A stretch of DNA of 63,349 bases from a virus. Under the pieces are notes generated by a model that did no database searches, was not told the DNA's origin, and saw nothing but the letters and a program-made list of their open reading frames with translations. The translations under genes and the position numbers were made by a program. Position 1 is the first letter of the stretch. Each line of letters starts with the position of its first letter. The stretch spans positions 1 to 63,349 of IMG/VR virus record IMGVR_UViG_3300020129_000380; one strand, written 5' to 3'. Positions 16,412-54,426 of the stretch are shown piece by piece.

Positions 16412-16419
16412 GGACAACT

Positions 16420-29484: not shown

Positions 29485-29493
29485 GGATCATTT

Positions 29494-29916: not shown

Positions 29917-30389
29917 TCTCTCCCTCCCGCACGATAACCATCGGGGACAAACAATACGTCCTCGATGGCTCTTTCGGCACCCTCCGCACCGTTCAGGAAT
30001 CTTTCAAACGCGACGTCGTCGATCTCGTCATCGGCGTCATGGACATGCGCCTTGATGAGGTTGCGAAGCTCATCGCCCACGCCAGTAACAGCATACAAGA
30101 TGAAATCGGCCAAGCCATTCTCGACAATCTTGGGCAAGGAAATGCTTACGTTCTCCTGAAGACCGAGCTTTACGCATGGCTGATGGTTGCTCTCGCACCC
30201 AAGGCAGAACGCGAAAAAAAAAGCGTTCAAATGGACGAAATCGTTCAGAAGGCCCGAGCAGCTTTCCATGGCCAGACTACCAACGCCTCGCCCTCGGATG
30301 CCTCGGCTGGCAGCCCAGCGAATTCTGGCGAAGCAACGTCTGGGAACTCACCTACGCCTGGGAAGGATACGCCCGAGCCAACGGTATAA
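29913..30389 (+). CDS. Tail assembly chaperone, short form (gpG-like)
   Basis: 158 residues in the zero frame. The N-terminal RTITIGDKQYVLDGSFGTLR and DRVVDLVIGVMD-like helices match GTA-type tail chaperone (Phage_TAC_11-like). After the A9 run the frame continues into a low-complexity Ser/Ala/Gly tail, as expected of the unshifted product. Helps tape-measure and tail-tube assembly. Confidence 0.8.
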   Translation: MISPSRTITIGDKQYVLDGSFGTLRTVQESFKRDVVDLVIGVMDMRLDEVAKLIAHASNSIQDEIGQAILDNLGQGNAYVLLKTELYAWLMVALAPKAEREKKSVQMDEIVQKARAAFHGQTTNASPSDASAGSPANSGEATSGNSPTPGKDTPEPTV

Positions 30390-30460
30390 AGCTGGGCGAG
30401 GAAGAATTCCCCACCCGCGAAGAACTCGACGAACTCATGCAAAGGTTCCCTGACAAATGA
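29913..30460 (+). CDS. Tail assembly chaperone, frameshifted long form (gpG-T-like)
   Basis: A -1 slip at 30213-30221 would fuse the first 103 residues to 79 residues of the other frame, giving about 182 residues. The -1 part contains FPWPDYQRLALGCLGWQPSE and FWRSNVWELTYAWEGY, the Phage_TAC_6/GTA pattern. A stand-alone start at ATG 30176 is possible but its first residues are junk. The G/G-T arrangement is known in lambda and many siphoviruses; here the site is seen, the event inferred. Confidence 0.72.
30213..30223 (+). promoter_or_regulatory. -1 ribosomal slippery site (A9)
   Basis: GAA AAA AAA AGC in the zero frame, with nine As at 30214-30222. A-AAA-AAA fits the X-XXY-YYZ rule for -1 slippage. 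The -1 frame after it encodes the second tail chaperone domain and ends at the tape measure start. Confidence 0.75.
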
Positions 30461-32130: not shown

Positions 32131-32729
32131 CCATCAACATGCCCTCCACGCCCAATTTCACGACCTGCCGCTTCGGCCTTGAGACCAACACGCAGACCTT
32201 TACCAGCCCCCTCACAAAGAACGTCCAGCGTGTTCTCCTCGCTGGTTCCCGTTGGTCGGCTCTTTATTCCCTCCCCGCCATGAAACGCGACCAAGCTGCT
32301 CCATGGAAGGCTTTTTTCGACCTTTGCGAAGGGCAAGCCAACGTCTTCGTCGCCTTCGACCCCGATTGCAAAAACCCTCGTGGGAACGTTGTCGGCAGCA
32401 CGCCGCTTGTCGCCGGGGCATCTCAGACTGGAAGCTCCCTCACAACCGACGGCTGGGCACACAGCACGCTCGTTTTGAAAGCAGGGGATTATTTTACCGT
32501 CAACAGCGAACTCAAGCGCGTCACTTCGGATGTTACGAGCGATGGTTCCGGGAATGCCACAGTTAGTTTCAAGCCCGCCCTTCGTTCAAGTCCTGCCGAT
32601 AATGCTCCGCTAACGGTCACAAACGCCACGACATCAATGGCCCTTCAGGACGACATGCAAGCCATGTTCACTTGTAATCCCAACGGCATTTACCAGCCGA
32701 TGACTTTTGCGGCGATGGAGGTCTTTTGA
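32127..32729 (+). CDS. Distal tail-type protein
   Basis: 200 residues. PLTKNVQRVLLAGSRWSALY, an insertion, and KRVTSDVTSDGSGNATVSF match the common tail-tip protein after the tape measure in proteobacterial siphoviruses. It should form the ring linking tube and baseplate. Confidence 0.8.
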   Translation: MTINMPSTPNFTTCRFGLETNTQTFTSPLTKNVQRVLLAGSRWSALYSLPAMKRDQAAPWKAFFDLCEGQANVFVAFDPDCKNPRGNVVGSTPLVAGASQTGSSLTTDGWAHSTLVLKAGDYFTVNSELKRVTSDVTSDGSGNATVSFKPALRSSPADNAPLTVTNATTSMALQDDMQAMFTCNPNGIYQPMTFAAMEVF

Positions 32730-33301
32730 CGACCGGCAGCAGGGACATCACATCGACGACAGCAGCAGCAGCCGCGGCGTCAACGATCATCCCCGTCATC
32801 TTCGCCAAGCTCGAACTCGACTCCGGCGATATTCTCATGCACACCGGTCTCGGCGACATCACCTGGGGCGGCGATACCTACTCAGGTGTAGGCAAATTAG
32901 GGAGCATCGGCACTGCTGAAGAGGTTTCTGACCTTTCACGCTCGCCAATTACCCTCACACTTTCCGGCATTCCCAACGACCTTATCGCCATTGTTCTCGG
33001 ACAGTATTACCAAGGCCGCTCCGCCACTATTTCCCTGGGGTATTTCGACCTCACCACTCGCATCCTCGTTGATACCCCCACCATCATCTATAAGGGGAAT
33101 ATTGACACTTCCAATATCGCTCAAGACCAAACAGGCACCGTCACCATCTCTGTAGAAAGCCGCTTCTCCGCATGGGATAAACCCAACGTCCGTCGTTATA
33201 ACAACGCCGACCAACAACTTCGCTTCCCCACCGATAAAGGTCTTCAATTCGTCGAAAGGGCAACCGACCAACAAATATTTTGGGGTGGTAAACAGCCATG
33301 A
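32726..33301 (+). CDS. Baseplate hub-like tail protein
   Basis: 191 residues from TTG 32726 in a TTGA overlap. LELDSGDILMHTGLGDITWG and EVSDLSRSPITLTLSGIPND are typical of DUF2163/GTA-type hub proteins. Sits in the usual order tape measure, distal tail, hub, NlpC/P60-like, tail tip. Confidence 0.78.
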   Translation: MTTGSRDITSTTAAAAAASTIIPVIFAKLELDSGDILMHTGLGDITWGGDTYSGVGKLGSIGTAEEVSDLSRSPITLTLSGIPNDLIAIVLGQYYQGRSATISLGYFDLTTRILVDTPTIIYKGNIDTSNIAQDQTGTVTISVESRFSAWDKPNVRRYNNADQQLRFPTDKGLQFVERATDQQIFWGGKQP

Positions 33302-33684
33302 GAGTTCAAAACTGGCCCTCTCTCCTTTATTTGCATTTACAGGATGCTCCGGAATTTGAATGGGGGCAAACCGATTGCGTGCTATGGTGTGCGGATTGGA
33401 TTCAAAAAGCCATCGGCGAAGACCTTACGGATGGCGCCAAGGGACAGTATTCAACTCTCGGCGAGGCTTACGAATACCTAAATGACCTCGGCTTTGAAAC
33501 CCCCGCTGACCTCGCCGACGAACATCTCGACCAAATCCAAATATCCTACGCCCAACGTGGAGATATCGTTCTCCATCCCGACGGACCCTTGGGAATTTGT
33601 GATGGAACATATAGCCACTTTCTCACCGAAACCGGGAAAACCCGATTTACGACCTTGAATTGCCTCCGTGCGTGGAGGGTTTAG
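33298..33684 (+). CDS. DUF6950/NlpC-P60-like tail peptidase
   Basis: 128 residues. WGQTDCVLWCADWIQKAIGE carries the catalytic-type Cys of the NlpC/P60 superfamily; the later RGDIVLHPDG pattern and a His-bearing strand match DUF6950. It probably cleaves peptidoglycan during DNA entry. The second and third active-site residues are less clear. Confidence 0.75.
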   Translation: MRVQNWPSLLYLHLQDAPEFEWGQTDCVLWCADWIQKAIGEDLTDGAKGQYSTLGEAYEYLNDLGFETPADLADEHLDQIQISYAQRGDIVLHPDGPLGICDGTYSHFLTETGKTRFTTLNCLRAWRV

Positions 33685-35865
33685 ATGTGGATTCTCCCGT
33701 TTCTTATTGCGTTCTTTACTCCCACTCCCGCTCACGCTGATCCCGTATCGCTAACCGCCGCAGCCATCGCTGCCGCTGAGTCAATAACCTGGGCCGACGT
33801 TGCCATTTTCGCTCTCAAAACCGTCGCCGCAATGGTCGTGTCTTCGGTCTTGAGCCGCGTCTTTGCCCCGCATCCGAAACAGCCCAACTTCGCCCAAGCT
33901 TCACAGGATTTCGGCGTCATGGTGCGGTCGAGCATCGAAACCCACAAAATCATATATGGCCAGGCGAAAGTCTCTGGTCCGCTGGTCGCCGTCGCAACGA
34001 CAGCCGACACAAATCAGTTCCTACACATGGTCATTGCCCTGGCCGGCCATGAAGTCTCGGAAATCGGCACGATTTACTTTGAAGACGTCCCGCTCAGCGT
34101 CAGCACAGACGGCTGGGTTACGAGCGGAGCCTACCCGAAAACCACTTCCTCAGTTGCCCAATCCATCTCATCCGCCTCCCGCACGGATGGCATAGTCACC
34201 GTCACCACCGGATCTTCGCATGGCTTCAGTGTTGGCGATCAAGTCGTCATCAAAGACCAAAGCGTGGCTTCTTTTAACGGCACGTTCATTATCCTCACCA
34301 CACCCAGCGGAACTACTTTCACCTACGCCACCGGCGGCGACAACGGCTCATCCACGGGCGGGACTGCGACAGATACAACGAACAATTCGGCTACAGACAG
34401 CTACGCCCGCATCAAAAAGTTCCTCGGCGCCGATGACCAGGCTGCGTCGACCGACCTCATCAACGAATTTCCCGGCTGGGATTCCGATCACACACTTTCG
34501 GGAATCGCCTACATCTACATCCGCCTCGAATATAACCGTGATATCTTCACGCAAGGCATTCCAAACGTAAGTGCCGTCGTCAAAGGAAAGAAAGTCTACG
34601 ATCCCCGTACAACCGGCTACGCATGGAGCGACAATGCCGCCCTTTGCATCCGGGATTACCTGACCAGCGATTACGGCTTTAATTGTGACTCAACCGAAAT
34701 CAATGATACCTATTTCACTTCCGCCGCTAACCATTGCGAGGAATCCGTCACCCTCACGACCGGCGGCTCGCAAGACCGTTATACCTGCAACGGCGTACTC
34801 GACACCGCATCCGCCCCAAGCGATAATCTCAATGCCCTCGTTGCCGCTCTGGCAGGAACCGTAACTTACGTTCAAGGCCAATTCCGCTGCCATGCCGGGG
34901 TTTATGACGCTACCGTGGGAGATATCACCACCGCCATGCTCGCCGGGGGAGTCAAGATCCAAGCGAGAACGACGCGCCAGCAACTTTTCAACGCTGTGCA
35001 GGGAACCTACACCGACCCGAACAAGAATTGGCAACCTACCGACTTCCCAGCGGTCACAAATGATACCTACACGGCACAAGACAATCAGCAAATCTTCAAA
35101 GACATCCAACTTCCTTTCACGAACCAGCCCGAAGCTGCCCAACGCATCGCCAAGGTTATTCTCGAACAAGCCCGCCAAGGAATCACCATCGAACTACCTC
35201 TGAAGCATTCGGCGTTGCCCTACGCCGTCTGGGATACCTTTACCTACACCGACCCGGTTTTGGGATGGGACCATAAAGTATTCCGCATCCGCAAACTCAG
35301 CACGACCGGGATAGGACCGATTACCATTTCTGCCCAGGAAGAAGCATCTACCGCGTATGATTGGGATTCCGGCGAAGCGACCACCATTGATTCCGCCCCC
35401 GATACCAACCTTCCAAATCCCTTCTCCGTAAATGTCCCCACCGGGGTTGCGTTCAACTCCCGTGTCATCAGCTCGACTGGCACCGACCAGATTTATGAAC
35501 TCGGCCTCGTCTGGGACAACCACGCCGATTTCTTCGTCTCTCAAGGGGGCAAATTCGAGGTGCAATTCAAGCTTTCCGCCGATTCCGACTGGAAGCCGTC
35601 TTTCGCCGTCGATGGCAACCTCATGTCCACCGATATCGCTGCGGCTTCCATCAACACCAGCTACGACATTCGCATACGAGCACGCAACAATCTCGGCGCC
35701 TCATCTGCATGGGTAACGATTCTCGGAGCAGTCGCAGGCTCATCCGGTGGCGTCGGGACGACCGCCGATTGGACAAATTGGACTAACGCCGTCGGCACAA
35801 CCGCCGATTGGGATAACTGGACGGATGCCGTTGGCACGTCAAATGATTGGGGATTCTTTACATGA
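33685..35865 (+). CDS. Tail tip/receptor protein (gpJ-like)
   Basis: 726 residues. N-terminus has a hydrophobic, signal-like start (MWILPFLIAFFTPTPAHADP), then AQASQDFGVMVRSSIETHK and IYGQAKVSGPLVA, hallmarks of tail-tip hub proteins. A 60-residue insertion (SVAQSISSASRTDGIVTVTT) is a surface beta domain. The C-terminus has a fibronectin-like domain and three WTNWT-type repeats (ADWTNWT, ADWDNWT, NDWGFF). It should bind the receptor and plug the tail. Confidence 0.85.
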   Translation: MWILPFLIAFFTPTPAHADPVSLTAAAIAAAESITWADVAIFALKTVAAMVVSSVLSRVFAPHPKQPNFAQASQDFGVMVRSSIETHKIIYGQAKVSGPLVAVATTADTNQFLHMVIALAGHEVSEIGTIYFEDVPLSVSTDGWVTSGAYPKTTSSVAQSISSASRTDGIVTVTTGSSHGFSVGDQVVIKDQSVASFNGTFIILTTPSGTTFTYATGGDNGSSTGGTATDTTNNSATDSYARIKKFLGADDQAASTDLINEFPGWDSDHTLSGIAYIYIRLEYNRDIFTQGIPNVSAVVKGKKVYDPRTTGYAWSDNAALCIRDYLTSDYGFNCDSTEINDTYFTSAANHCEESVTLTTGGSQDRYTCNGVLDTASAPSDNLNALVAALAGTVTYVQGQFRCHAGVYDATVGDITTAMLAGGVKIQARTTRQQLFNAVQGTYTDPNKNWQPTDFPAVTNDTYTAQDNQQIFKDIQLPFTNQPEAAQRIAKVILEQARQGITIELPLKHSALPYAVWDTFTYTDPVLGWDHKVFRIRKLSTTGIGPITISAQEEASTAYDWDSGEATTIDSAPDTNLPNPFSVNVPTGVAFNSRVISSTGTDQIYELGLVWDNHADFFVSQGGKFEVQFKLSADSDWKPSFAVDGNLMSTDIAAASINTSYDIRIRARNNLGASSAWVTILGAVAGSSGGVGTTADWTNWTNAVGTTADWDNWTDAVGTSNDWGFFT

Positions 35866-37075: not shown

Positions 37076-37438
37076 ATGAGTAAGGTGAAGTTCGATACCG
37101 GCATTGAAATGGAGCACAAAAACCGTTACTTCCGCTTCGTTCCCACCATTTCCACAGGCCATCTCACCATGGCCGCATCCGTCATCGTCGCTTCGACTCT
37201 CGCCTGGGCGCAACTTCGGAGCGACATTGCGAAGCTCGACAATGAAAACTCCAATCGGAAAGCCGAAATCCAAACCGTAACGGATAAACAGGATAAAGAC
37301 CGTGGTGAACTCTATCGCAAAATAACGGAAAGCCAGGCGACCATGCATGGCGAAATAAAAGACCTCGGCAGCACGATGGCGGCACGCTTCGACCGGCTGG
37401 AAGACAAGCTGGATCGAAAGGCGGATAAAAGGCCATGA
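37076..37438 (+). CDS. Membrane protein with coiled-coil tail, spanin- or holin-like
   Basis: 120 residues. One hydrophobic segment (about 29-46, LTMAASVIVASTLAWAQL) followed by a charged coiled coil (SDIAKLDNENSNRKAEIQTV). This is the layout of an inner-membrane i-spanin: short tail in the cytoplasm, helix, coiled coil in the periplasm. It precedes the endolysin in ATGA overlap. i-spanin is the best guess, but a holin accessory is possible. Confidence 0.55.
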   Translation: MSKVKFDTGIEMEHKNRYFRFVPTISTGHLTMAASVIVASTLAWAQLRSDIAKLDNENSNRKAEIQTVTDKQDKDRGELYRKITESQATMHGEIKDLGSTMAARFDRLEDKLDRKADKRP

Positions 37439-37875
37439 GCGACCGCGATATCACCCATCTCCATCCGGACCTACAACCGCTTTATACCCAGTGGCATGAT
37501 ATGTGTCATCGCCAATCCATTCCCGTCTTTATGGTTGAAGGCTTCCGCTCCATGGCACAACAGGCCCTGGATTACGCCGTTGGCAGGGACGAACACGGCA
37601 ACATCATCGGGAAAATCTTAACTAACGCCAAACCCGGCCAATCCCCACACAATTTTACGATCGATGGTAATCCGGCCAGCAAAGCCTTCGATTGGGCTAT
37701 TCTCAATCCTGATGGCTCAGTTAATTGGAACGCTAATTCCCCGCTTTGGAAAACCGCCGTCACCATCGGCAAGCTCCTCACCCTCAAGTGGGGTGGTGAT
37801 TTCAGCTGGAAGGATAACGACCATTTTGAACTTGAAAACAACCGCTTTGCACTTCAACCATGGAGAACACAATGA
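37435..37875 (+). CDS. M15-family peptidase endolysin (VanY/L-Ala-D-Glu type)
   Basis: 146 residues. VEGFRSMAQQALDYAVGRDE, then SPHNF and AFDWAIL (zinc ligands His and Asp) and DNDHFEL (His) match M15 D,D- or L,D-peptidases used as endolysins. No signal peptide, so release needs a holin. Sits in the middle of a chain of small membrane proteins. Confidence 0.88.
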   Translation: MSDRDITHLHPDLQPLYTQWHDMCHRQSIPVFMVEGFRSMAQQALDYAVGRDEHGNIIGKILTNAKPGQSPHNFTIDGNPASKAFDWAILNPDGSVNWNANSPLWKTAVTIGKLLTLKWGGDFSWKDNDHFELENNRFALQPWRTQ

Positions 37876-42927: not shown

Positions 42928-44151
42928 CTACCTCTCCCGCTCCCCGTTTTTCTTGAGCCGCAGCTTTTCGGCCAGGCCCCCAAGGACTTCATCCGCCGTC
43001 CGCTTTTTCTCCGTCCCCGTGTAATACCGCATCATGACCTCCGGCGTTACGTCGAATGCCGCCGCGGCCCGTTTTGGGTTGATGTCCGCTTCAGCTGCAC
43101 GAGTGAATGCGGCCTTCCGAAAATCATGGCTGGAAAAATCCCGCCCCGTTTCCTTTTGATACGTCTGCATCGTTTGCTCGACCCAGCGATAGAGCCGACC
43201 TGGAGAGAACTCCGGATTCTGCCGATGGACGGGAAACCCCTTTGCTACATTCGCCGCGATCAATTCGGCAGGATACCTCTCCCAAAGATACGTCTCTCCC
43301 TTGTAAGACTCCAAAGCTGCATAAACATCCTCGGGAAGAATCGCATAGCGTTCTGAGCGATTCTTCGTTACGTCCGCAGGGAAGACAAGCCGCCCGTCTT
43401 GAAGTTGAACAGAGCGAAGGTTGCAAAGATCCTCAAGCCGGCAGCCGGTGAGGGCCTTGACGTCGAAAAAGAGTTGCGGCATCGCCCAGCCGGGATAACG
43501 ATTCCCCAGCCAATCGTAGAAATGTTGCACGTCATCCGAGCTTACGTATTTGACTTCGTGCCGGTCGAGCTTCGGCGCCATGACTTCCGAAAAGGGATTT
43601 TCCTTTACCAGCTTCAGATCCCGAAGCCACGAGAACACCGCCTTTAGCGTGACGACGCGGCTATGGACCGACTTCGCCTCATGTTTCTTTCCATGATGAC
43701 TCTCTGTCGCGTATTTCGTCTTGAAGCGTGCCGCCAACTCCGGCGTCACCTCGGCAGGTCCTTTCGTCGTGAACATCGCCTTGAGCTTGCCCAGCGTCTC
43801 CAGGTAGCCCTTGATCGTATTCGGACGTTTGCCGTCAGCTTCCATTTCTTCCTTCAGCCGCTCTTCCGCCTCTTCCCAGCAGACACCCTCTTGGCTTTGC
43901 ACGACAACCGGCTTCGCTTGTCCGTATGCTTCGAGAATGATTTGCTGTGCCGCGTCGATCGCCGCCGCTTTTTTTACCTGGCCGGTGCCTCGCCGTACTT
44001 GGCCTTCAGGCCCTTTAAAGCGGACATACCAATCGTTAGTACGCTCTGGACGCGAATAAAGTGCGAACCTAATCCGCCGCCCATCGGGCAATACGACATG
44101 ATTTCTTTGCCACATCTTCAACGACTTATACCTATGTGGATTGGGTGTCAA
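42928..44151 (-). CDS. int: Tyrosine-recombinase integrase
   Basis: 407 residues from TTG 44151, which overlaps the excisionase stop (TTGA); ATG 44115 is the alternative and a TTGACA/TATAAG pair between them may be an internal promoter. Arm-binding N-terminus, core-binding domain about 85-190, catalytic domain with Arg238 (TGCRLEDLC), His342-x-x-Arg345 (HDFRK) and Tyr376/377 (MRYYTG). All key residues present. It recombines attP with a host tRNA gene. Confidence 0.93.
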   Translation of the reverse strand: MTPNPHRYKSLKMWQRNHVVLPDGRRIRFALYSRPERTNDWYVRFKGPEGQVRRGTGQVKKAAAIDAAQQIILEAYGQAKPVVVQSQEGVCWEEAEERLKEEMEADGKRPNTIKGYLETLGKLKAMFTTKGPAEVTPELAARFKTKYATESHHGKKHEAKSVHSRVVTLKAVFSWLRDLKLVKENPFSEVMAPKLDRHEVKYVSSDDVQHFYDWLGNRYPGWAMPQLFFDVKALTGCRLEDLCNLRSVQLQDGRLVFPADVTKNRSERYAILPEDVYAALESYKGETYLWERYPAELIAANVAKGFPVHRQNPEFSPGRLYRWVEQTMQTYQKETGRDFSSHDFRKAAFTRAAEADINPKRAAAAFDVTPEVMMRYYTGTEKKRTADEVLGGLAEKLRLKKNGERER

Positions 44152-44375: not shown

Positions 44376-44471
44376 CTACCGAAACAGTTTGCGGATGCCC
44401 ACCGCGATAAGCATCAACCCCAAAAGCATTTTGAGACCGTAGTTTTCAAACATCCCATCAGCGAATAACAT
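44376..44471 (-). CDS. 31-residue membrane peptide
   Basis: GGGAGG precedes the ATG. One hydrophobic helix (LKMLLGLMLIAVGI) and a basic tail. Part of the run of small membrane genes between coupling protein and integrase. Confidence 0.5.
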   Translation of the reverse strand: MLFADGMFENYGLKMLLGLMLIAVGIRKLFR

Positions 44472-44518
44472 TGGACTACCCTCCCTTTGGTGATGTAAAA
44501 GCTTCTTCTCGTTCCGGT

Positions 44519-44893
44519 TTATCGGGGCGGCGCCACAAGCTGTGTGCCATTCTGGCTTGTCCTGTCGAGCCAAATACAAATTCCCATTACCACCGCGCAG
44601 CCGCACATAACAATCCAAGGCGGCACGCCAAATTCGTTCAGAGCCAGCCCGATGCCGACGCCGGTCGCAAACCTCCCTACCAGATAGTTCCCGAAGCTCT
44701 CGTCCTTCTCCGGGTTGAGTCTTTCAAGAATCTTTCCCACCATAATCCATGTGAACAGGGCTGCCGGGATACCGGCAACGAAAGCCTCCATTACTGGTTC
44801 ACGAAGGCCGAAATAGCCGAAGATGAAACCAACACACCAGGTCACGGCGAAATACGCCGCATACGTTGCACTAATTCTCGCTGCAAGGTTCAT
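44519..44893 (-). CDS. Polytopic membrane protein
   Basis: 124 residues from ATG 44893 (44905 also in frame). About four hydrophobic helices, for example TYAAYFAVTWCVGFIFGYFG and PWIVMCGCAVVMGICIWL, and a charged loop (LERLNPEKDES). No family recognised. Lies in the coupling-protein operon. Confidence 0.65.
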   Translation of the reverse strand: MNLAARISATYAAYFAVTWCVGFIFGYFGLREPVMEAFVAGIPAALFTWIMVGKILERLNPEKDESFGNYLVGRFATGVGIGLALNEFGVPPWIVMCGCAVVMGICIWLDRTSQNGTQLVAPPR

Positions 44894-44912
44894 GAGATAC
44901 TCCAAACAAGGG

Positions 44913-45002
44913 TTACTTTTTCGTCACTGAGGCAAACAATGCACTCAGCAACATCAAACACACTATGGTCACAGAAAGACCAACAATTCCGTCGTCTGTC
45001 AT
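44913..45002 (-). CDS. 29-residue membrane peptide
   Basis: AAGGAA upstream of ATG 45002. One hydrophobic helix (IVGLSVTIVCLMLLSALFAS) with a short polar N-terminus and Lys-Lys at the end. Same run of small membrane genes. Confidence 0.5.
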   Translation of the reverse strand: MTDDGIVGLSVTIVCLMLLSALFASVTKK

Positions 45003-45031
45003 AGTACGTTCCTTAAAAGACGCTCTGGGAT

Positions 45032-45235
45032 TCACCGCTTGAAAAACAGGCTGGCGACCTTCAAGCCGCCCATCGCAGCCTTGCCCATCATCTCCCGGCG
45101 TTTGGCGCCTTCTTCAGCCTCTTGGGCTTTCAGCCGTTGGTAGGCTTCAGGTTCTTTCAAGAGCAGGTAAAGGGGAAACACCACCTTGACCGCCACGATG
45201 ACCAAAATAATCAAAATCACAAGTCCCGCTTCCAT
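45032..45235 (-). CDS. Small membrane protein with charged tail
   Basis: 67 residues from ATG 45235. N-terminal hydrophobic helix (AGLVILIILVIVAVKVVFPL) followed by a charged helix (EAYQRLKAQEAEEGAKRREM). It might be a bitopic partner of the coupling protein, from position only. Confidence 0.6.
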   Translation of the reverse strand: MEAGLVILIILVIVAVKVVFPLYLLLKEPEAYQRLKAQEAEEGAKRREMMGKAAMGGLKVASLFFKR

Positions 45236-45302
45236 CGCTCTATCCCTCAAGATGCCCGAGGCCAGTTCGCCTACACAGCTAGTGACCCCGGGCGACCATG
45301 TG

Positions 45303-45617
45303 TTACATTGACATTCCGCCCCGACTCATTTCGGGCTGATCGATTTCGTGTGATTGCGAAATCTCGGGTTGTTGCACTTCGACGCTCGGCTGCCCTACTT
45401 GATGCGGATACATGACGAATCCACTTCCATTGAACAGCCCGGCGGCGATCTCCGACGCCCCGAGGGGAATCAGGTGGTCGGCTGCCTGTCCCATCCCCTC
45501 AAAAAGCGTTCCCGCGACTGTGGCGACACCGCCCAGAAACGCCCCCACACCCTCCTTGATACCCTCCGTCACAGCTTCCGTTGCCGTGATGCTCTGAAAT
45601 TCCTCTTGCGGACTCAT
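45303..45617 (-). CDS. Gly/Ala-rich amphipathic protein
   Basis: 104 residues from ATG 45617 (ATGA with the coupling-protein stop). The centre (GVGAFLGGVATVAGTLFEGM) is Gly-rich and membrane-active in look; the C-terminus is Gln/Glu/Ser-rich and extended. No family recognised. Being co-translated with the coupling protein suggests a shared role. Confidence 0.6.
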   Translation of the reverse strand: MSPQEEFQSITATEAVTEGIKEGVGAFLGGVATVAGTLFEGMGQAADHLIPLGASEIAAGLFNGSGFVMYPHQVGQPSVEVQQPEISQSHEIDQPEMSRGGMSM

Positions 45618-47317
45618 CGAAACCCTCCCTTCATGAAATGCGTGGCCATGGCAGTGCCTACGAGGCACAAAAACACCGTGCCAAGCATCAACAGAAACGA
45701 CCCAAACATATGCGACTTTTGCCCTTTGAGCAGCCATTTGTCGCTGTAGTATTTCACGAGCTTAACTTTTATCGGCCGCGTCGAGGGGCAGAACACTATG
45801 GCCTCATCCGCCGGCGTTTGCAGCACTTCGTCAGCGGTTGCCAGCTCCCTCTTATGCTGAGTAAGTGTCTCAGACTTATTCTTGCCCCAGTTCATCCCCC
45901 AGCTCACATCCCTGCCATTTGACGATGAGCTTCCCGAGCTACGGCCATTCTGCCACGACTCACATAAAACCGTAGCGGAGCCTAGGCGCTTGCTTATATA
46001 TTCCGCCGTGCCGTTGTTTTTCTCGATTCCCATCGAGTTCACGCCGAAGAAAATCTGCGTCACGTTCGACATAAACGTTTCTTCCTGGCCAGGGAAACAT
46101 TTAGCCACCTGATTCACGCTCTGAAAAAACCAGTGGCAACGCACACCGTAACCTGCACCTTTATCAAGAGCCTCATCCACCACATCCATATGGCCGAGCT
46201 TCGCCGCCTCATCGAAGATGAAGTGCGTTTTACGCCTCTCCTGAAGCCCCCCTCTCATCGCCGCCTTTAACATCACACCTATGACCATCCTCACCCACGG
46301 CTCCAGCACTTTGGAATGCTCTAACGACGGCACAATGTAGACCGTCATGGGTTTTGACAGGGGAACGAACGAACTCGTCCGGGAGTTTTCGGCGATTCTC
46401 TCAGAGTCCAAAAACCGCATAAACCTCGCCGTCGTCGTTAATGTCGAGCCCTTTTCCTCCCCCATGAAAAAAGACAATTGATTGCCCATTCTCTGCAACA
46501 TTCCTCCGGATCGTTTCATTACCTCGATGGCGATTTTTAGCTTTTCCGGGCTGGTGAGTATGTCCTGCACGGCCTGTAGGTTCCTGTGACTCTGGTCAGC
46601 GTGAGTCATGGTGGTCGCGATAATGGCCGATATGAACATCTCCGCCGTATCCTTGAAATGGCCGGAATTTCCGTCTTCTTTTTCCTCCCGGATGACAAAG
46701 CTTTTCGCCAGATCCTTGGCGTCATCGAGTTCCTTTGCGAAGCTCAATGGGTTTAACGTCGCCGATTCAAAGGGAATCTTGCCGTGTAGTGTCCTATGGG
46801 GGTCGATAACATGCACCTCACCGAACCGGCGCCGGTAGGCCGCTGTAAGGAGGGCGAGTTCGCCCTTGTAATCAATCACCACTTGCGAATCCGGGCAGGT
46901 CAAAAGATGAGGCAATATGATCGACACACCCTTCCCCGACCGGGTTGGCGCACACGTACAGGTGTGAATCGCCTTGGTTAACCGTACAACCAGCTTGTCC
47001 TTGTTAAACGCGGCGATGGCCTCCCTGTTGGGAATACTCATATCCAAAAGCCCCAGCACCGCCGATTTGCGGGGAGCATGGGGGAGCGCTCCCACAATCA
47101 ACCCTTCCCTTGCGTTAATCATCCCCCGCAAATCCTTCCGCTCCGCCCACCTCGCTGTCCCATGTTTCCACCAGTTGGCCTTTGGTTTCACCAGGGCGAC
47201 TATCCCCGCCAGCACGAAGATAAGCGACCATGGCAACCCCACCACACCGGCGATGGTCACGAGGTAAATCATGCCCAAAACGTAAACCTGAAGCATCTTT
47301 CGTGAAATCCAGAACAT
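45614..47317 (-). CDS. VirD4/TraG-type type IV coupling protein
   Basis: 567 residues, family length. Two N-terminal membrane helices (about 9-26 and 30-46), Walker A APTRSGKGVS (123-131), Walker B HFIFDEAAK (365-373) and the later FFQSVNQVAKCFPGQEE segment. Coupling proteins bring a relaxase-DNA complex to a type IV secretion channel. Odd: an extra hydrophobic C-terminal helix (about 538-560, MFGSFLLMLGTVFLCLVGTA). Works presumably with the MobF relaxase at 51532-54426. Confidence 0.92.
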   Translation of the reverse strand: MFWISRKMLQVYVLGMIYLVTIAGVVGLPWSLIFVLAGIVALVKPKANWWKHGTARWAERKDLRGMINAREGLIVGALPHAPRKSAVLGLLDMSIPNREAIAAFNKDKLVVRLTKAIHTCTCAPTRSGKGVSIILPHLLTCPDSQVVIDYKGELALLTAAYRRRFGEVHVIDPHRTLHGKIPFESATLNPLSFAKELDDAKDLAKSFVIREEKEDGNSGHFKDTAEMFISAIIATTMTHADQSHRNLQAVQDILTSPEKLKIAIEVMKRSGGMLQRMGNQLSFFMGEEKGSTLTTTARFMRFLDSERIAENSRTSSFVPLSKPMTVYIVPSLEHSKVLEPWVRMVIGVMLKAAMRGGLQERRKTHFIFDEAAKLGHMDVVDEALDKGAGYGVRCHWFFQSVNQVAKCFPGQEETFMSNVTQIFFGVNSMGIEKNNGTAEYISKRLGSATVLCESWQNGRSSGSSSSNGRDVSWGMNWGKNKSETLTQHKRELATADEVLQTPADEAIVFCPSTRPIKVKLVKYYSDKWLLKGQKSHMFGSFLLMLGTVFLCLVGTAMATHFMKGGFR

Positions 47318-47502
47318 CAGTTCCTCCCCGGATCAAGCCGTGAATCACCCCGTCCTCGTTTGGTTTCGTAACACTCCAAACCCGCTTTGATAATTTCGTA
47401 GAGCCGTAAGAACGCCTCTCTATAGTCCCCCTCGGGATCGGTCACGACCATCACATTATGCGTTAACACGAAGGCGCAATCGTGCAACAAGGACTGGCTC
47501 AT
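47317..47502 (-). CDS. Small hypothetical protein of coupling-protein operon
   Basis: 61 residues from ATG 47502 (ATGA overlap with the ParB-like gene) and TGATG junction with the coupling protein. HDCAFVLTHNVMVVTDPEGD and YREAFLRLYEIIKAGLECYE suggest a small alpha/beta protein. Function unknown. Confidence 0.65.
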   Translation of the reverse strand: MSQSLLHDCAFVLTHNVMVVTDPEGDYREAFLRLYEIIKAGLECYETKRGRGDSRLDPGRN

Positions 47503-48278
47503 GGCGTGGCCTCCAGCTTCTTCTTTTGATCCGACACAAATTGCTTGATGTCCTTTTTCCCAACGTCCCGCCGCCACGACTTGATGAGTTTTTCGAGCAG
47601 ATCCAGCCCGATGACCATATCCAGCTCCTCGGCGGAGATCGTCACCGTCCCGCCGGGAAGGGGGATGGACGCACGTTTGCACTTCGATTCGGTGAAGCCG
47701 TTGCGGGCAGCCCGACCCTTGGTAACGATGTCATCCCGCGTCGCACCGTTCAGGGCAGCGAGGAGCATGTCATGTTGCTTCTGGGCGTCCACCTTGCTGA
47801 TTTCGTTCCACATCGAGATGCCGATTCGACCAGCCGCCGCCGCGTCCTTTACGGCATCGATGGTGTCCTTAAGGCTAAAAATCTTGGAAATCATGCTGGC
47901 GTCATAGCCCGTGCGGATAGCCAAATCCTTGGCCGTGCCATTCGGGTTCTCCTCGAACCATTTGTCAATCCGCATGAACTGGTCGATGGGGGAAAGCGTT
48001 GCTTTGTGCCAGCTTGTGATTAAATGCACCTCGCTTGCGGACAGCGGTTCGTCCGTTAAGATGCCGAACAGCTTTTCCGGCTTCCCATTCTTTCGGGCAA
48101 TACGCAGCCGCCGGCCACCGTCCTTCACCACGCCCGACATATCGGCCAAAAGAGGCTCCAATTGCCCCCTCGCCAAGCTCACGCCGAGCCGTTGCTCATC
48201 CTCCGGGTTCTCGAACAACCGCACGTTGTTCGGATCTTCTTTCCAAAACGACAGGCATTCTTCGACGAATTTACGCAT
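47499..48278 (-). CDS. ParB/KorB-like protein
   Basis: 259 residues from ATG 48278. N-terminal ParB/Srx-like part (VRLFENPEDEQRLGVSLARG, then QLEPLLADM), then an HTH region (LSPIDQFMRIDKWFEENPNG, then KDLAIRTGYDASMISKIFSL) and a C-terminal helical domain with basic end. ParB proteins bind centromere-like sites and KorB-types repress transfer genes. No ParA partner is seen, so regulation of the transfer operon is the likelier role. First gene of that operon. Confidence 0.75.
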   Translation of the reverse strand: MRKFVEECLSFWKEDPNNVRLFENPEDEQRLGVSLARGQLEPLLADMSGVVKDGGRRLRIARKNGKPEKLFGILTDEPLSASEVHLITSWHKATLSPIDQFMRIDKWFEENPNGTAKDLAIRTGYDASMISKIFSLKDTIDAVKDAAAAGRIGISMWNEISKVDAQKQHDMLLAALNGATRDDIVTKGRAARNGFTESKCKRASIPLPGGTVTISAEELDMVIGLDLLEKLIKSWRRDVGKKDIKQFVSDQKKKLEATP

Positions 48279-48608
48279 GGACGTACCTTTCACGATGCGG
48301 GCGCACGATGGACGTGACCCTAGACAAAGGGAAAAAGACTTCGGTTAATTCAGGGAACTTTTAGCCGAGCAGGAAATGGCGCACGGGGATTCTCCTTTGA
48401 CGTTGCACACGTCATACAAAAGAACGCTAGGACACTTGGAGAGCTGTACTTGGTAGACTTCTCAATCGTATACCGCTCATCAGAGCAAAGATAAAAAACG
48501 ATTTTTTTTTTCGTTTTTTCTTCCGATCTGTACATCCGTTCTACCCCGCTACTTGACATCCGCCTGAATTTGTGACTTAGCTTCCCTAAACCACAACGGG
48601 AGGGCAAA
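48279..48608. promoter_or_regulatory. Divergent control region of transfer operon
   Basis: About 330 bases without a gene. A rightward TTGACA (48553) with TTAGCT 18 bases on is a fair promoter for the next gene. At 48493-48519 lies a perfect dyad AAAAAACGA-T9-TCGTTTTTT, an A/T-tract structure likely bent or melting-prone. Suitable for ParB-like binding, but no repeated parS sites were found. Confidence 0.5.
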
Positions 48609-49091
48609 ATGGCATCACGCCGCAAGACTCAAGAGGAACCGCAAACACTTCAGGAAGCAGTGACCGAGCAGGCCGCGACCGCGACGGAGCCGCAAACGTT
48701 TCAAGAAGCCTTGAAAAAAGAAGGCAAGGAGCTTGAGAAAAAGAAGTCCTACACCCTCCTTGAAGGCCGTGCCCACGACAACCCGACCGGCGTGGAAATC
48801 GACAAATACGCCAGCACCGAAAACGGTCATTTTGAATGGCGGATGTACTTCCGCGACGGCGATCCCGGCCCGCAGGTCAGGGCATACTTACGCCAAAACG
48901 GCATGGATTTTGATAAGTTCGGAGAACGCGAAGCCAGCAACCATTATCAGGCAACAAAGCCTTGGTTCAAGCCGGTCCCGTATCGGGCGGAAGGCGCCTA
49001 CGATGATGCCCAACGCATCTATTACGCTGTCGTGCAGATGATGAAGCGGGAAAAAGGGCTGGAAGTGGACGATTCCAAAGGCCGCTTCTAA
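48609..49091 (+). CDS. Hypothetical protein opposite ParB-like gene
   Basis: 160 residues. N-terminal third has a repeat (QTLQEAVTEQAATATEPQTF, QEALKKEGKELEKK); the rest is a beta-alpha domain (HFEWRMYFRDGDPGPQVRAY). A terminator follows. Soluble, no family recognised. Confidence 0.7.
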   Translation: MASRRKTQEEPQTLQEAVTEQAATATEPQTFQEALKKEGKELEKKKSYTLLEGRAHDNPTGVEIDKYASTENGHFEWRMYFRDGDPGPQVRAYLRQNGMDFDKFGEREASNHYQATKPWFKPVPYRAEGAYDDAQRIYYAVVQMMKREKGLEVDDSKGRF

Positions 49092-49128
49092 AAGGCTCCG
49101 CCCACCCTTTGCGGGCAGAACGGAGCCT
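49092..49128. terminator. Bidirectional terminator between convergent genes
   Basis: Dyad AGGCTCCG and CGGAGCCT with an inner CCC-GGG pairing, located between the ends of the convergent genes at 49091 and 49132. Rich in GC, T-run weak on both sides. Confidence 0.65.
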
Positions 49129-49131
49129 AAA

Positions 49132-49794
49132 TCACTTCCAGCATACGCGACACGTCGCACAGGTCACGCCGCGAGCCTTTCCTTCCGGAGTATCGGTAGG
49201 GCAAACTTTCCCCACGACATCGAGCGGGATACGTTCCTTTCGCAGGGGATTGTCGAGAAAGACCAAATCGGCCTGCTCTACATCTTCCCATGCTTCGGTT
49301 TGCATCCACGCCACTCTCGCTCCGTCCGGAACCTCGTCGGGATAACCCGTTTCTGCGTCCGCCGACAGCCACAACTTCATATTGGGCATTAAGCTGATGG
49401 CTTTCAGTATCGGAAAGATGGTCTTCACACGCCAGCTTCGGGTATACGCCCAAAACATCGTGTGTGACGACCTACCGATAACCTCCAGCATCTTGCGGGC
49501 ATACGCCGGGCTGAATACATCCCCAGAAATATGCCACCGCATTAACAGGATTCCCATACGATACAACTCGTCGGTCATCCTATCCGCGAAATCGCCTCGC
49601 TTTGCCTGCTCGTAATTCCAACGTAACCGTTCCTTCACTTGTCGAAACAAGAAGCGTCTTTTACGGGCATAGCATCGCCTCAGACATAGCTGACTTTTGC
49701 CGGGGCAGGTGATTCCTGCCTCAAGATCGAAATGGGCAACTGATGGACTCAGTTTTTCATTCCCCATTACAATCAGACTTCGTACACATTTCAT
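49132..49794 (-). CDS. GP88-family protein
   Basis: 220 residues. MGNEKLSPSVAHFDLEAGIT, CPGKSQLCLRRCYARKRRF and RWHISGDVFSPAYARKMLEV match the Gene product 88 family (PF17338) of phages and plasmids; the C-terminus carries a four-Cys set (CPTDTPEGKARGVTCATCRVC). The Cys clusters may hold a metal or Fe-S cluster. Function of the family is unknown to me. ATG 49794 has AAGGGG upstream; ATG 49767 is the alternative. Confidence 0.8.
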   Translation of the reverse strand: MKCVRSLIVMGNEKLSPSVAHFDLEAGITCPGKSQLCLRRCYARKRRFLFRQVKERLRWNYEQAKRGDFADRMTDELYRMGILLMRWHISGDVFSPAYARKMLEVIGRSSHTMFWAYTRSWRVKTIFPILKAISLMPNMKLWLSADAETGYPDEVPDGARVAWMQTEAWEDVEQADLVFLDNPLRKERIPLDVVGKVCPTDTPEGKARGVTCATCRVCWK

Positions 49795-49936
49795 CCATCA
49801 CCCCTTTACGAAATGAAGACCCGAAATGCCTAGTTTCACGAATGAAACAAGTAACGCGTGGATGATGAATGAGAACGCTTGAACGCGCAAGCAAATACTT
49901 CTTGCAATGACTTGTGACTTGTACTAACGTCCGCTT
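49795..49936. promoter_or_regulatory. Divergent region with dyad operator
   Basis: 142 bases between the GP88 gene and the HTH gene. Perfect dyad GTTTCA-CGAA-TGAAAC (49833-49848) is a likely operator for the HTH regulator. TTGCAA (about 49904) and TACTAA downstream could be a rightward promoter. Confidence 0.5.
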
Positions 49937-50188
49937 ATGAGCGAATTGGTCAAACAAATCATCAAAGATACAGGCCTTTCCCAAAAGGATGCCGCCGCCG
50001 AGCTTGGCATAAGTGCAGCGTATTTATGCGATGTGTTGAATGGGCGCCGCCAAATAAGCATCGACCTCGCCTTGAGATTGGAAAAAGCATTCGATGCGGA
50101 CGCCGAGGGCTTGCTATACGGCCAACTCGTTGACCAGATGCGGGCACACAGGAAGAAGGGTAAATGGCAACGGGAGGTAACAAAATGA
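49937..50188 (+). CDS. XRE-family HTH regulator (HigA-like)
   Basis: 83 residues. IIKDTGLSQKDAAAELGISA, AYLCDVLNGRRQISIDLALR is a classical XRE helix-turn-helix. The C-terminal tail resembles HigA-type antitoxins, but no toxin gene lies beside it. Probably regulates the divergent pair. Confidence 0.8.
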   Translation: MSELVKQIIKDTGLSQKDAAAELGISAAYLCDVLNGRRQISIDLALRLEKAFDADAEGLLYGQLVDQMRAHRKKGKWQREVTK

Positions 50189-50346
50189 GCGATGACATGA
50201 ATACAGAAATGCAGGCTAGTTTTATACTATTCCTAGTAGCTATACTTGGATTTGCCTTTATACTGATTCTCCCACTTGCCCAGGTATTCGTCGGAGTTGG
50301 AATACTGCCGCCTTCCGTCTTAGACACGCTAGGTATTCCGAAATGA
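50185..50346 (+). CDS. Membrane peptide
   Basis: 53 residues from ATG 50185 (ATGA overlap). One long hydrophobic stretch (ASFILFLVAILGFAFILILP) and a second weaker one. Function unknown. Confidence 0.6.
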   Translation: MSDDMNTEMQASFILFLVAILGFAFILILPLAQVFVGVGILPPSVLDTLGIPK

Positions 50347-50558
50347 CGGAGTTAGCATTAGCAAACCAAGGTGAGGGGGGTGAGTATGGGCAATGGGCGG
50401 ATAGGCCAGCTATGACTTTGTGGGGCATGTTCACTTGTATTGGAGTAGCCGGGATCTTTGATAATGCCCCATGGAGATTCATCGCCGCCTTCCTTTTTGG
50501 GGGTGTTGTGACCGCACCGCTCTTTCAAGCATTTTGCAAAGGATTATTGGGTTTATGA
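50343..50558 (+). CDS. Two-pass membrane protein
   Basis: 71 residues, ATGA-coupled at both ends. Hydrophobic helices at about 24-39 (TLWGMFTCIGVAGIF) and 45-65. Unknown. Confidence 0.6.
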   Translation: MTELALANQGEGGEYGQWADRPAMTLWGMFTCIGVAGIFDNAPWRFIAAFLFGGVVTAPLFQAFCKGLLGL

Positions 50559-50899
50559 CCACAACCACCATCTCCCACCCCACCCTCTCAGAACGCATAG
50601 AGCACGTCAAAAAGCTTGATGCGACCAGGATGCCAGGACAATTGGTCGCGGCGTTTGGCGAGGATGAAAGCATTGTGTGTTTAAGGCATTCTCCACCCTT
50701 TGAAGTCATTGCCAAGTGCAACCATTTAAACCACCCCGCCGATGCCCGCTTCCTTGCCCAAGCCCCCGCCATGATGGAAATCATAACGGAATTGACGCAG
50801 AGGCTGGAGGTGGCTCGGCAAGGCGTGTGGCCGCCACGAGGCGAATGTTATAACGCCGCGGATTTGGCCAAGCCCTTCTCCCCTTCGGAGTCAGCATGA
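50555..50899 (+). CDS. Hypothetical protein (Ead/Ea22-type pattern)
   Basis: 114 residues from ATG 50555. HPADARFLAQAPAMMEIITE and LTQRLEVARQGV are a recurring pattern in phage early proteins of unknown role, in which an NGADARFIA-like segment precedes a helix. Soluble. Confidence 0.65.
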   Translation: MTTTTISHPTLSERIEHVKKLDATRMPGQLVAAFGEDESIVCLRHSPPFEVIAKCNHLNHPADARFLAQAPAMMEIITELTQRLEVARQGVWPPRGECYNAADLAKPFSPSESA

Positions 50900-51093
50900 C
50901 CCCCTTCAGCATATTTGATGTCCAAAAGCCGCCCTTCGACTTCTGGCTGTCCATTGCCCCCAACGGAGGAGTTGCCGTATTATCGGAAACGCTTGCTAAA
51001 CGCCTGGCGAATGTTGATTCTGGAGTATTCGCCCGGCGGCTCTCTTGGGATGGCCAGAAACTCGTTGATAGCACTCCAGATGAGGCACCCTAA
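50896..51093 (+). CDS. Hypothetical protein
   Basis: 65 residues, ATGA-coupled. FDFWLSIAPNGGVAVLSETL pattern; no domain recognised. Its end overlaps the end of the convergent gene at 51090. Confidence 0.6.
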   Translation: MTPFSIFDVQKPPFDFWLSIAPNGGVAVLSETLAKRLANVDSGVFARRLSWDGQKLVDSTPDEAP

Positions 51094-51548
51094 TCCTTCA
51101 ATGCCTTCGGCGTGACATCGACGATCTCCACTTCCGTAAACACGACGCCTTTCTCCGCCGCCTTCATTGCGTCGTTGGCGAAGTCTCGCGTCACCTCCCG
51201 AATGTAGGGCCACCGCTTGAGCGTGCAATAATCGTACGCCCGCCATAACATCTCGCCGTAGCCCTTCACCCGCAATTCCCAATGCTTCGCCCCCGTGAAG
51301 GGAATCATGAACCCATTGCCGTAGAAGGCACTCTTCACATCGAGGTGAATGTTCTGAAGCGTCTCAATCGAGCCGTCCCGCTTAATCACATGCAAGCGTG
51401 GCACTTCTTTGTTAGTCGGCCGCATCGCCGTGGAATCGCCCCGCATCTCTGCGATTGAAATCGGGAATACATCCTCATCCGGCGTGGCCGACACACGCTT
51501 TCTGGCCTGGTCGTTCTCAGGCTCGGGAATCTCAGTATGACCGAACAA
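51090..51548 (-). CDS. Hypothetical protein co-transcribed with relaxase
   Basis: 152 residues, overlapping the relaxase end by 17 bases. Acidic disordered N-terminal third, then a folded alpha/beta part (LHVIKRDGSIETLQNIHLDV, SAFYGNGFMIPFTGAKHWEL). No known family. Coupling to the relaxase suggests a role in transfer. Confidence 0.65.
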   Translation of the reverse strand: MFGHTEIPEPENDQARKRVSATPDEDVFPISIAEMRGDSTAMRPTNKEVPRLHVIKRDGSIETLQNIHLDVKSAFYGNGFMIPFTGAKHWELRVKGYGEMLWRAYDYCTLKRWPYIREVTRDFANDAMKAAEKGVVFTEVEIVDVTPKALKD

Positions 51549-54426
51549 GCTCGCGATTTCCTCTGTGGTTGGAATGTTGCACCTCGGGTTTCATAACATC
51601 GATGTAACGTTGGTTCAATAATTTCTGCTGATGCATCATGCGGCGCCGCCGATAAAAAGCGTCCATGGGATGGATTGCGGGCTTGCGGTTCATTAGCTCC
51701 GAAGCCGATTTCTTCGAGTCGGTTTTCTGGATATGTTTGCGGAGTTCATCGGGGGAAAGGTCGGAATAAATCCTCGCCCCAAACTTGCCGCGGGAGAGCG
51801 TCACATAATCCTGGGCAGCGTTCATTGCTCCGATGGAATCACGCCCCATTGCAGCCAGAACGTAATCGGAAGTAGCCCCTTGCACGGCGTAGGACGTTGA
51901 GACGTAGGCGTGTTTCAGATGGCCGAATCGCTGCGAGACAATCCACCCATTATTAAGCTTAATGTCGCCTTCTTTGGTGAATCCGGACACGGTGTACTCA
52001 TTTCCGTTGTCGAGGCGATGCTTGTTTCCTTTACTGTCACATGCCACACCCCCGTTGGTGATTCGTATGGCTTCTCCAGCAGCGAGTCTAATCTCCTCTC
52101 GTTTGAAGACGCTAAAATGTTCAGGGCGGAGATTGCCGACTCCGCCTGCAACATCAGCGACGTTAACTCTGTCACCCGCCTTGTAAGCTCCGCTATTTCG
52201 TGTAAATTGCAGTACTTCGGTTCCATCATAGGAGTGCCTATCACCTTTTTGGGCTGGCGTGAGATGAAGCGGGATAAGCCTTTCAAACGGTCTCTCATCC
52301 TTTAGTTTCCCTTGCTCTTTGAGCTTTTCACGGATTGCATCGGTGATTGCCCCGCCAGCCTTATGCGATGGTGCAACCACGAGAACGCTGCGCCCCATAT
52401 CACCCATCCGGAGAAAATCGTCAACCAAAGCATCATAACCTTGTTCCTGTTTCACCCACCCAAGCTTCTCTAAAAGTCCATGCCCGGCGAGTATATTACC
52501 TTTAGCGATTTCTGCAACCGCTTCCTTGTATCCCTTGTGCTTTTGTCGCCAGTTCTCGGTTAATCTTCCAATCGGCAGACCAGCGAACTTGTCGAGGATT
52601 TCAAAGAGGTTTCCACGGGCAACGCTCTTGTGCTGCTTGCGGTCGCCCTGCAAAATGACCCTTGCGTTCAGTTCCTTCGCATACCCGAACACCTTGTCAA
52701 TATCGGAGATACCCGCCAGCGGGGCTTCGTCGATGTAGATGTATCCGTTGCGGGCGCCCTCGCGGAACTTGGGGTCGACGAGGAAGCGGGCGATGGTATC
52801 GGCATTTGAAAAGCCCTTCTCCCTAAGTGTCCCGCGGGAAGCTGAAGCCGATGGAGCAAGGAACACACCGGGCTTGTCGATGCCGGGGATTGTCCGTTGC
52901 ATGGTCTGGGTTTTACCCGTCCCCGCGTCGCCCTCGATCATGATTACGCGGTCGGTGGATTTATGGATGAAGTCACAAATGGCTTGCTGTTCGGCTGAAA
53001 GCGTGGCAATCTCTTTTTGGACGTTTAATCCACGCCCATGGGGGGCGGCTCCATTGGAAACTCCGATGGGAATCGCCCGGCCGGTAGCCGTCCCCCTCTC
53101 ATTTAAGCTCAGGCCGCTATGCTTATTTGAACCGCTGACGCTTTGCCCTGATTTGTCAATGCTTTCCGATGTCCGAATAACAGCTTGCTGTTCGGGGGAG
53201 AGTGTGGCAACCTTCTCGGACGGACTTAGTACACCCGCTAACGGCCGCATTGTCCCTTTCCCCTCACGGGCGAAGTCGATGATGCGGCCTTCCTCTGCAA
53301 GGACTTCGCGAGTGGTGGCTTCTCCGTTCTTGAGGAGCACGCCCTGGCGGAGAGCTTCGGGAATAATCTCCTCTGGTTTGGCCCCGCCCATGCAGCGTTC
53401 CATGGCGGTTATCTCAAGTCTCTTCTGGTCGATGACGCTATCCCGGTAAAACTCATGGCCTATTGCGAAGGAAATGCCCTTTTCAGCGGTGTTTGTCTGT
53501 TTGGGGTTCTTTCCCTTCAAGGCACCTTTAATCGTCTCTGCAAGCCCTTTCCTTTCGCTTTCCGATGCTTTGCCGTTCCAGTAGGACCGGTAATCATCAA
53601 GCGTCATGTCCTCTCGTTTATGGAGCCTGGACGTGGCACCGAGCTTATCCTTTCCTACGGCGGTCTCGACCTTCAGTTCCTTGGCCAGCTTTTCAACCTC
53701 TTGTGACCGGCGGGAATGCTTGGCCTTTAATGTCTCGGGGATGCCTTTGATGTCCCATGAGTAGTATTTGCCTTGCTTGTACGTTGTGTCGATCTGGTAG
53801 CCTAAGTTCGCCAACTTAGTTGACACACGAAGGTCAAACCTTCTATCAAACCATTTTCTCAAATCCATCAGGTTTCTGAACTGTACCGCCTGCCATTGCT
53901 TGGCTTCTTCGCACCAGGTTACGTTTGCTATAAGCCCATGAATGTGGTGGTCGGGATCTGGCATAGCATCTGACTTTGCCGGGCGCGTCTCTGCATGTTC
54001 CTCGGCGTAATAAACGATATTCCCCGTCTGCTTCTTTCCGTCCCGGCCACCTCGCATGTTCGTCACAGCCTCGGCCTGCATATCCGCCATCGTTTCCCGG
54101 AACGCTTCCCAAACAACATCAGTAATCCTCTTATCGTCCCCCTCCATTGCAAGGCTCACGCCCTTAGGAAGGGACGCGGTGATATGCCAGCCGGGGATTC
54201 TTCCGTCGATAAGCTGGGCGGTGAGCTGGTCATTGGTATGAGGATCGCGGCCATTCAACAGCCGAAGGAACTTCTCAAAGTCCGGTTCTGCCAACCCAAG
54301 CCTCTTTGCTCCCTCACCCCCTATCTCGCGATGCAAATCTTCGTTTTGGACGAAATAACCCCCGTCACTCTTTCCCAGGTAGGTACTGAGAGAGCCGACA
54401 TCGGTAATGACTTGAATCCGCCACAT
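51532..54426 (-). CDS. MobF-family relaxase-helicase (TrwC/TraI type)
   Basis: 964 residues. Relaxase domain 1-270: catalytic Tyr candidates Tyr16 and Tyr24 (as in TrwC Tyr18/Tyr26), GWHITASLPKGVSL (80-93) and the metal triad His144, His161, His163 (DPDHHIHG). Helicase domain: Walker A GDAGTGKT (499-506) and Walker B YIYIDEAP (about 555), with RecD-like motifs after. It nicks oriT, stays on the 5-prime end and unwinds DNA for transfer. A duplicated ATLS-x-EQQA motif lies at 407-415 and 474-482. Intact. Confidence 0.93.
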   Translation of the reverse strand: MWRIQVITDVGSLSTYLGKSDGGYFVQNEDLHREIGGEGAKRLGLAEPDFEKFLRLLNGRDPHTNDQLTAQLIDGRIPGWHITASLPKGVSLAMEGDDKRITDVVWEAFRETMADMQAEAVTNMRGGRDGKKQTGNIVYYAEEHAETRPAKSDAMPDPDHHIHGLIANVTWCEEAKQWQAVQFRNLMDLRKWFDRRFDLRVSTKLANLGYQIDTTYKQGKYYSWDIKGIPETLKAKHSRRSQEVEKLAKELKVETAVGKDKLGATSRLHKREDMTLDDYRSYWNGKASESERKGLAETIKGALKGKNPKQTNTAEKGISFAIGHEFYRDSVIDQKRLEITAMERCMGGAKPEEIIPEALRQGVLLKNGEATTREVLAEEGRIIDFAREGKGTMRPLAGVLSPSEKVATLSPEQQAVIRTSESIDKSGQSVSGSNKHSGLSLNERGTATGRAIPIGVSNGAAPHGRGLNVQKEIATLSAEQQAICDFIHKSTDRVIMIEGDAGTGKTQTMQRTIPGIDKPGVFLAPSASASRGTLREKGFSNADTIARFLVDPKFREGARNGYIYIDEAPLAGISDIDKVFGYAKELNARVILQGDRKQHKSVARGNLFEILDKFAGLPIGRLTENWRQKHKGYKEAVAEIAKGNILAGHGLLEKLGWVKQEQGYDALVDDFLRMGDMGRSVLVVAPSHKAGGAITDAIREKLKEQGKLKDERPFERLIPLHLTPAQKGDRHSYDGTEVLQFTRNSGAYKAGDRVNVADVAGGVGNLRPEHFSVFKREEIRLAAGEAIRITNGGVACDSKGNKHRLDNGNEYTVSGFTKEGDIKLNNGWIVSQRFGHLKHAYVSTSYAVQGATSDYVLAAMGRDSIGAMNAAQDYVTLSRGKFGARIYSDLSPDELRKHIQKTDSKKSASELMNRKPAIHPMDAFYRRRRMMHQQKLLNQRYIDVMKPEVQHSNHRGNRELVRSY

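Follow-up and report, generated by a model that had tools for sequence, protein, structure and literature searches.

The virus record IMGVR_UViG_3300020129_000380 of IMG/VR, analysed here over its full length of 63,349 bp (the window), is the complete genome of a temperate siphovirus with a planctomycete host and carries, beside its integrase gene, a MobF-type relaxase-helicase and a VirD4-type coupling protein together with several smaller genes. Judged from sequence comparisons, this mobilisation module is conserved across several planctomycete phages and prophages, and it is common to them and to mobilisable-looking plasmids. We give about even chances to the reading that the window is a mobilisable temperate phage whose plasmid-type module has long been inherited, and dual transmission, as virions and by conjugative mobilisation, is plausible. 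Phages and conjugative elements are usually seen as separate transmission strategies; in the lineages described here, a relaxase, its partner, a ParB-like protein, and a coupling-type ATPase have been retained over deep divergence by intact phages that represent at least two types of tail.

A complete phage with a relaxase and a coupling protein

The relaxase-helicase gene (51532..54426, minus strand) encodes 964 amino acids that match TrwC (PF08751, E 4e-47) and the AAA_30 helicase (E 1e-31), the latter in a C-terminal superfamily 1 (SF1) helicase region with the Walker motif GDAGTGKT. A profile made from 13 N-terminal relaxase domains (the window and 12 relatives) matches the MobF relaxases TrwC, F TraI, pKM101 TraI, and pCU1 TraI in the PDB, with E values down to 6e-51, and the predicted fold (pLDDT 85) matches TrwC with a Foldseek E of 2e-18 and a TM-score of about 0.8. 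An earlier note, made from the sequence alone, had described a relaxase with both tyrosine candidates and the histidine triad, and these residues (Y16, Y24, H144, H161, and H163) are indeed kept in alignment.

The same note had reported a coupling protein with intact Walker motifs, and we agree. This protein of 567 amino acids (45614..47317, minus strand) matches PF02534, the T4SS-DNA_transf ATPase domain, across almost its full length (E 8e-51), as well as TraG-D_C and TrwB_AAD_bind (PF12696 and PF10412), and both Walker A (APTRSGKG) and Walker B (FIFDEAA) are intact. It has the N-terminal transmembrane anchor typical of the VirD4/TraG family and, in addition, a hydrophobic C-terminal transmembrane helix that is common to its planctomycete relatives.

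Both genes belong to a minus-strand block at 42.9-54.4 kb in which every module gene has a full-length reading frame. The relaxase gene overlaps at its 3′ end with the gene of a partner protein of about 152 amino acids (51090..51548), which is followed along the strand by a GP88-family protein (PF17338, 49132..49794) that is a module member in several relatives, a ParB-like protein (47499..48278), and a small protein (45303..45617) that overlaps the stop of the coupling-protein gene. The tyrosine integrase (42928..44115) adjoins the module, as it does at the corresponding position in the prophages of Limnoglobus and Zavarzinella described below. Of the functions expected in a phage-plasmid, the window has the ParB-like protein, while neither ParA nor a plasmid Rep was detected, and the relatives lie in a chromosome or a long scaffold, next to an integrase. 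The earlier note had placed the module at 44376-54426; its coordinates and main gene calls were right, and the module extends slightly beyond them, to the integrase at 42.9 kb and the TerD and TerC genes at 40-42 kb.

The first and last 127 bases of the window (1..127 and 63223-63349) are exactly identical, which closes the genome into a circle of 63,222 bp; this overlap is probably what an assembler working at k=127 leaves when the molecule is circular or circularly permuted. A tailed-phage gene set lies on the plus strand at 11.9-38 kb and comprises the terminase large subunit (TerL, 11990..13189), the portal (13191..14594), the head morphogenesis protein, maturation protease, and major capsid protein (MCP; the three together at 14584..17721), a head-tail adaptor, a tail tube protein, the tape measure (30457-32130), the distal tail protein (Dit, 32127-32729), the central fibre J (33685-35865), and an endolysin (37435..37875). 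The tape measure, Dit, and fibre J belong to a tail module that spans 28181..35865. Having TerL, portal, MCP, tape measure, tail fibre, and lysis genes in one genome, the window is a siphovirus-type member of the Caudoviricetes, and no tail sheath was seen among its searched proteins. Thus, the complete siphovirus of the earlier note, from terminase to fibres with lysis and integrase genes, was correctly recognised.

Relatives that carry phage genes and the module

Relatives with both phage and mobilisation genes, for which the earlier note had suggested a search, were found in two isolates and two viral contigs. In Zavarzinella formosa, scaffold 3 holds at about 802-872 kb a prophage with head and tail genes collinear with those of the window (69% identity for TerL, 62% for the portal, 53% for MCP, and 58% for fibre J), the module (relaxase 50%, partner 48%, GP88 71%, ParB-like protein 32%, and coupling protein 33%), and, on its far side, an integrase; gaps of 677 and 10 N bases lie between the virion block and the module block. 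At four more loci in this genome, homologous head genes lie within about 12-20 kb of a MobF gene, and five of its nine relaxase loci lie at most 40 kb from a portal gene (p about 1e-4 under random placement).

The chromosome of Limnoglobus roseus, which is gap-free at the locus, contains a myovirus prophage (tail sheath, tape measure, portal, MCP, and TerL) with a module made up of a relaxase, GP88 (68% identity), a ParB_N protein (PF02195) homologous to the ParB-like protein of the window, and a more diverged coupling-type ATPase. A direct repeat of 20 nt, with its copies at 6589205 and 6659237 and a tyrosine integrase beside it, encloses both the head genes and the module. Because the longest repeats in 60 simulated pairs of flanks reached at most 18 nt, this repeat is likely, though not certainly, the att pair. 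Finally, the IMG/VR records G003 (143 kb) and G011 (86 kb) each carry TerL, portal, MobF, and coupling-protein genes on a single contig. Scanning IMG/VR for patterns taken from one window protein at a time (relaxase, coupling protein, or portal) gave no matches; alignment-based scans were successful. Matches to phrog_2 within relaxase frames were traced to the helicase Walker A motif and dropped as false TerL calls.

Clustering of the proteins encoded around the relaxases of 18 elements defined the core of the module: the relaxase (18 of 18), the partner of about 150 amino acids (15), the ParB-like protein (14), and the coupling protein (12). The small protein after the coupling protein (6) and GP88 (5) are lesser members, and no other large membrane protein or ATPase was conspicuously co-conserved in these elements. 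All four core proteins are also found on the plasmids pSINAC03 and PALBO2. In a relaxase tree of 32 rows, the window falls, with support of 100/100, in a clade of 11 relaxases of which seven are phage-borne, four are unplaced, and none is on a plasmid, while four other relaxases form a second phage clade. The nearest relatives in genomes are all from planctomycetes or from unclassified metagenome-assembled genomes, and the best plasmid relatives are planctomycete as well, plus a more distant one on a Runella plasmid. By domain, fold, and phylogeny, then, the window protein is a MOBF relaxase.

The association with phages has its bounds. Near the relaxases of 13 further genomes, taken as an independent sample, no PF04860 portal was found, so the phage link is a trait of the window's clades and not of planctomycete MobF proteins generally. 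Among reference sequences, 50,697 phage records gave only one partial MobF-like match, as against matches in at least 5,000 plasmids, and MobF phages are thus rare in reference collections. As a separate observation, one Gemmataceae metagenome-assembled genome (G008) bears a large relaxase load, with about ten MobF loci and seven coupling-protein loci spread over several contigs; VirB4 was not found in it.

Transfer channel, oriT, and competing explanations

If the window is a mobilisable phage, the route would begin with its excision, after which the relaxase would nick a putative origin of transfer (oriT) and its helicase domain would unwind one strand. The phage's own coupling protein might then dock the relaxase onto a transfer channel provided by the host or by another element, and the phage could pass between cells in the manner of a mobilisable element besides spreading in virions. 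Part of what the earlier note had proposed in this respect stands, in that the phage is complete and non-chimeric and its module conserved, with both a relaxase and a coupling protein present.

Several results weigh against this reading. The conserved Asp of MobF relaxases, which sits beside the catalytic Tyr and the HUH histidines (D84 in pKM101 TraI; PMC9868005), is replaced in the window by His81 (codon CAT); of 33 relatives, 32 keep the Asp and the other has a Glu. This bears on activity, not on family; because of it the activity of this copy is uncertain, and nicking at oriT is a predicted function of the protein. An oriT was not found by inverted repeats, motifs, or k-mers shared upstream of the relaxases. 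The sole motif above shuffles was the palindrome TGGAACnGTTCCA, which is absent from the window and occurs near the relaxases of four relatives, within about 0.1-2.5 kb of the relaxase start (G003, G004 C4, G005 C169, and G007 at 7.2 Mb); it could be a regulatory or a transfer site. In addition, two Zavarzinella prophages (C16 and the one at 350 kb of C8) have a relaxase with no coupling protein found nearby.

The channel is a further difficulty. As the earlier note had said, the window has no VirB-like genes: both VirB4 profiles (PF03135 and PF19044) were negative, none of 42 further proteins scanned with Pfam matched a component of a type IV secretion system (T4SS) channel, and the window does not qualify as a self-transmissible element (an integrative and conjugative element or a conjugative plasmid). 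For the helper that the note had assumed as the source of a channel, the related hosts gave no evidence. Of 392 planctomycete genomes sampled, 14 had TrwC and five had VirB4 (PF03135), with no overlap, and PF03135 was also absent from six other relaxase-bearing genomes, five virus records (the window included), and three plasmids. PF19044 was absent from 22 relaxase-bearing records, 14 genomes among them, while four control genomes were positive. VirB4 is thus absent from all relaxase-bearing planctomycete genomes tested (20 with PF03135 and 14 with PF19044), a result that is strong and not final, as drafts may miss helper plasmids and a highly diverged ATPase might evade the profiles. One could imagine a conjugation-like route particular to Planctomycetota, in which MobF and a VirD4-type ATPase that bears an additional membrane helix at its C terminus use a channel without a recognisable VirB4, adopted by whole phage lineages as a second mode of transmission; we consider this unlikely.

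The main rival explanation is a role in replication. MobF may have been recruited as a replication protein of the phage or episome, its HUH nickase and helicase starting rolling-circle or late replication, with the coupling ATPase moving DNA at a different step. There is an analogy in P2-like phages, in which the HUH protein gpA initiates replication. Such a role would fit the absence of a recognisable VirB4 from the hosts, the conserved position of the relaxase gene, divergent from the head genes, and the observation that more of the related prophages have kept the relaxase than have kept the coupling protein. However, the window holds a separate replication-type gene (primosomal-like, 7056-7856), and a VirD4-family ATPase and the partner are co-conserved with the relaxase, also on planctomycete plasmids. 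We regard the replication role as possible, though clearly less probable than mobilisation of the phage.

It is also conceivable that the module is a decaying passenger of an old phage-plasmid fusion, and that the change from Asp to His has already impaired the window relaxase, which sits on a long terminal branch (0.77); in some relatives, relaxase or coupling-protein frames are split. Nevertheless, the module genes of the window are full-length, and several phage types have retained the module although identity has fallen to about 30-50%, which points to selection; decay therefore seems improbable to us. A chimera assembled from a phage and a plasmid, which the earlier note had named among the findings that would refute its claim, might be suspected in an IMG/VR record in which plasmid-like and phage-like genes form separate blocks. 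We reject it as highly improbable given the circular closure and the identical linkage in independent genomes, that is, in Zavarzinella formosa, in the gap-free Limnoglobus chromosome, and in the two further viral contigs. Of these readings, mobilisation of a temperate phage remains the one we favour. It raises the question of which channel serves planctomycete relaxases in genomes without VirB4, and, with two of the hosts available as isolates (Zavarzinella formosa and Limnoglobus roseus), whether a phage can conjugate as well is directly testable.

Other features of the window

Between the lysis genes and the integrase there are tellurite-type genes on the minus strand, TerC/DUF475 (40025-40936) and TerD (41501-42085), which are 53-77% identical to genes of G003 that lie beside, and collinear with, its mobilisation module. 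Two DNA methyltransferase genes occupy 56779-59133, and their homologues adjoin the relaxase in Zavarzinella prophages too. Within the head-tail region, a gene at 21602-22954 encodes a Lysophospholipase/GDSL-like esterase, and a repetitive Gly/Thr/Ala-rich protein of 1080 amino acids (24431-27673) is encoded in a local island of 65% GC that lies between head and tail genes. One of the 42 scanned proteins, perhaps that at 35862-36839, has an Mtd_N (major tropism determinant) domain. A tandem pair of tRNA-Arg (CCG) genes is located at 60773-60997, and one of them matches Methylobacterium and Paracoccus plasmid DNA at >90% over 42-57 nt; a DNA similarity search against phage and plasmid records gave only such tRNA-sized matches to the window.

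Comparison with known systems

Among open-licence papers, we found none that links Planctomycetes, prophages, and relaxases, and none describing a lineage of phages in which a MobF-coupling module is conserved; PMC12977533 is a further reference for this literature. The closest parallels in gene content are the planctomycete plasmids pSINAC03 and PALBO2, which, like the window, have a relaxase of MobF type, the partner, a ParB-like protein, and a VirD4-type coupling protein, without a VirB channel. CloDF13 is a classical mobilisable plasmid with its own coupling protein (PMC11389934). It too pairs a relaxase with a VirD4-type coupling protein and has no VirB channel. These three plasmids lack virion genes, whereas the module of the window is part of a complete phage. 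The MOBF relaxases TrwC of R388 and TraI of F share with the window protein the relaxase fold, the catalytic Tyr, the His triad, and the fused SF1 helicase, but identity is only about 20-25%, and the window has His81 in place of the conserved Asp and is without T4SS genes.

Conjugation-like movement has been described for the Streptococcus pyogenes prophage Phi1207.3 with no defined mechanism (PMC4260502). The term relaxase is nowhere used in that paper, while the window has a defined relaxase and coupling protein for a putative transfer. P1-like phage-plasmids and the plasmids derived from them also combine phage and mobilisation functions within one lineage, in which relaxases and oriTs appear mainly after the loss of virion functions (PMC10879196). 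In contrast, the virion genes of the window are complete, and its module is common to several types of phage.

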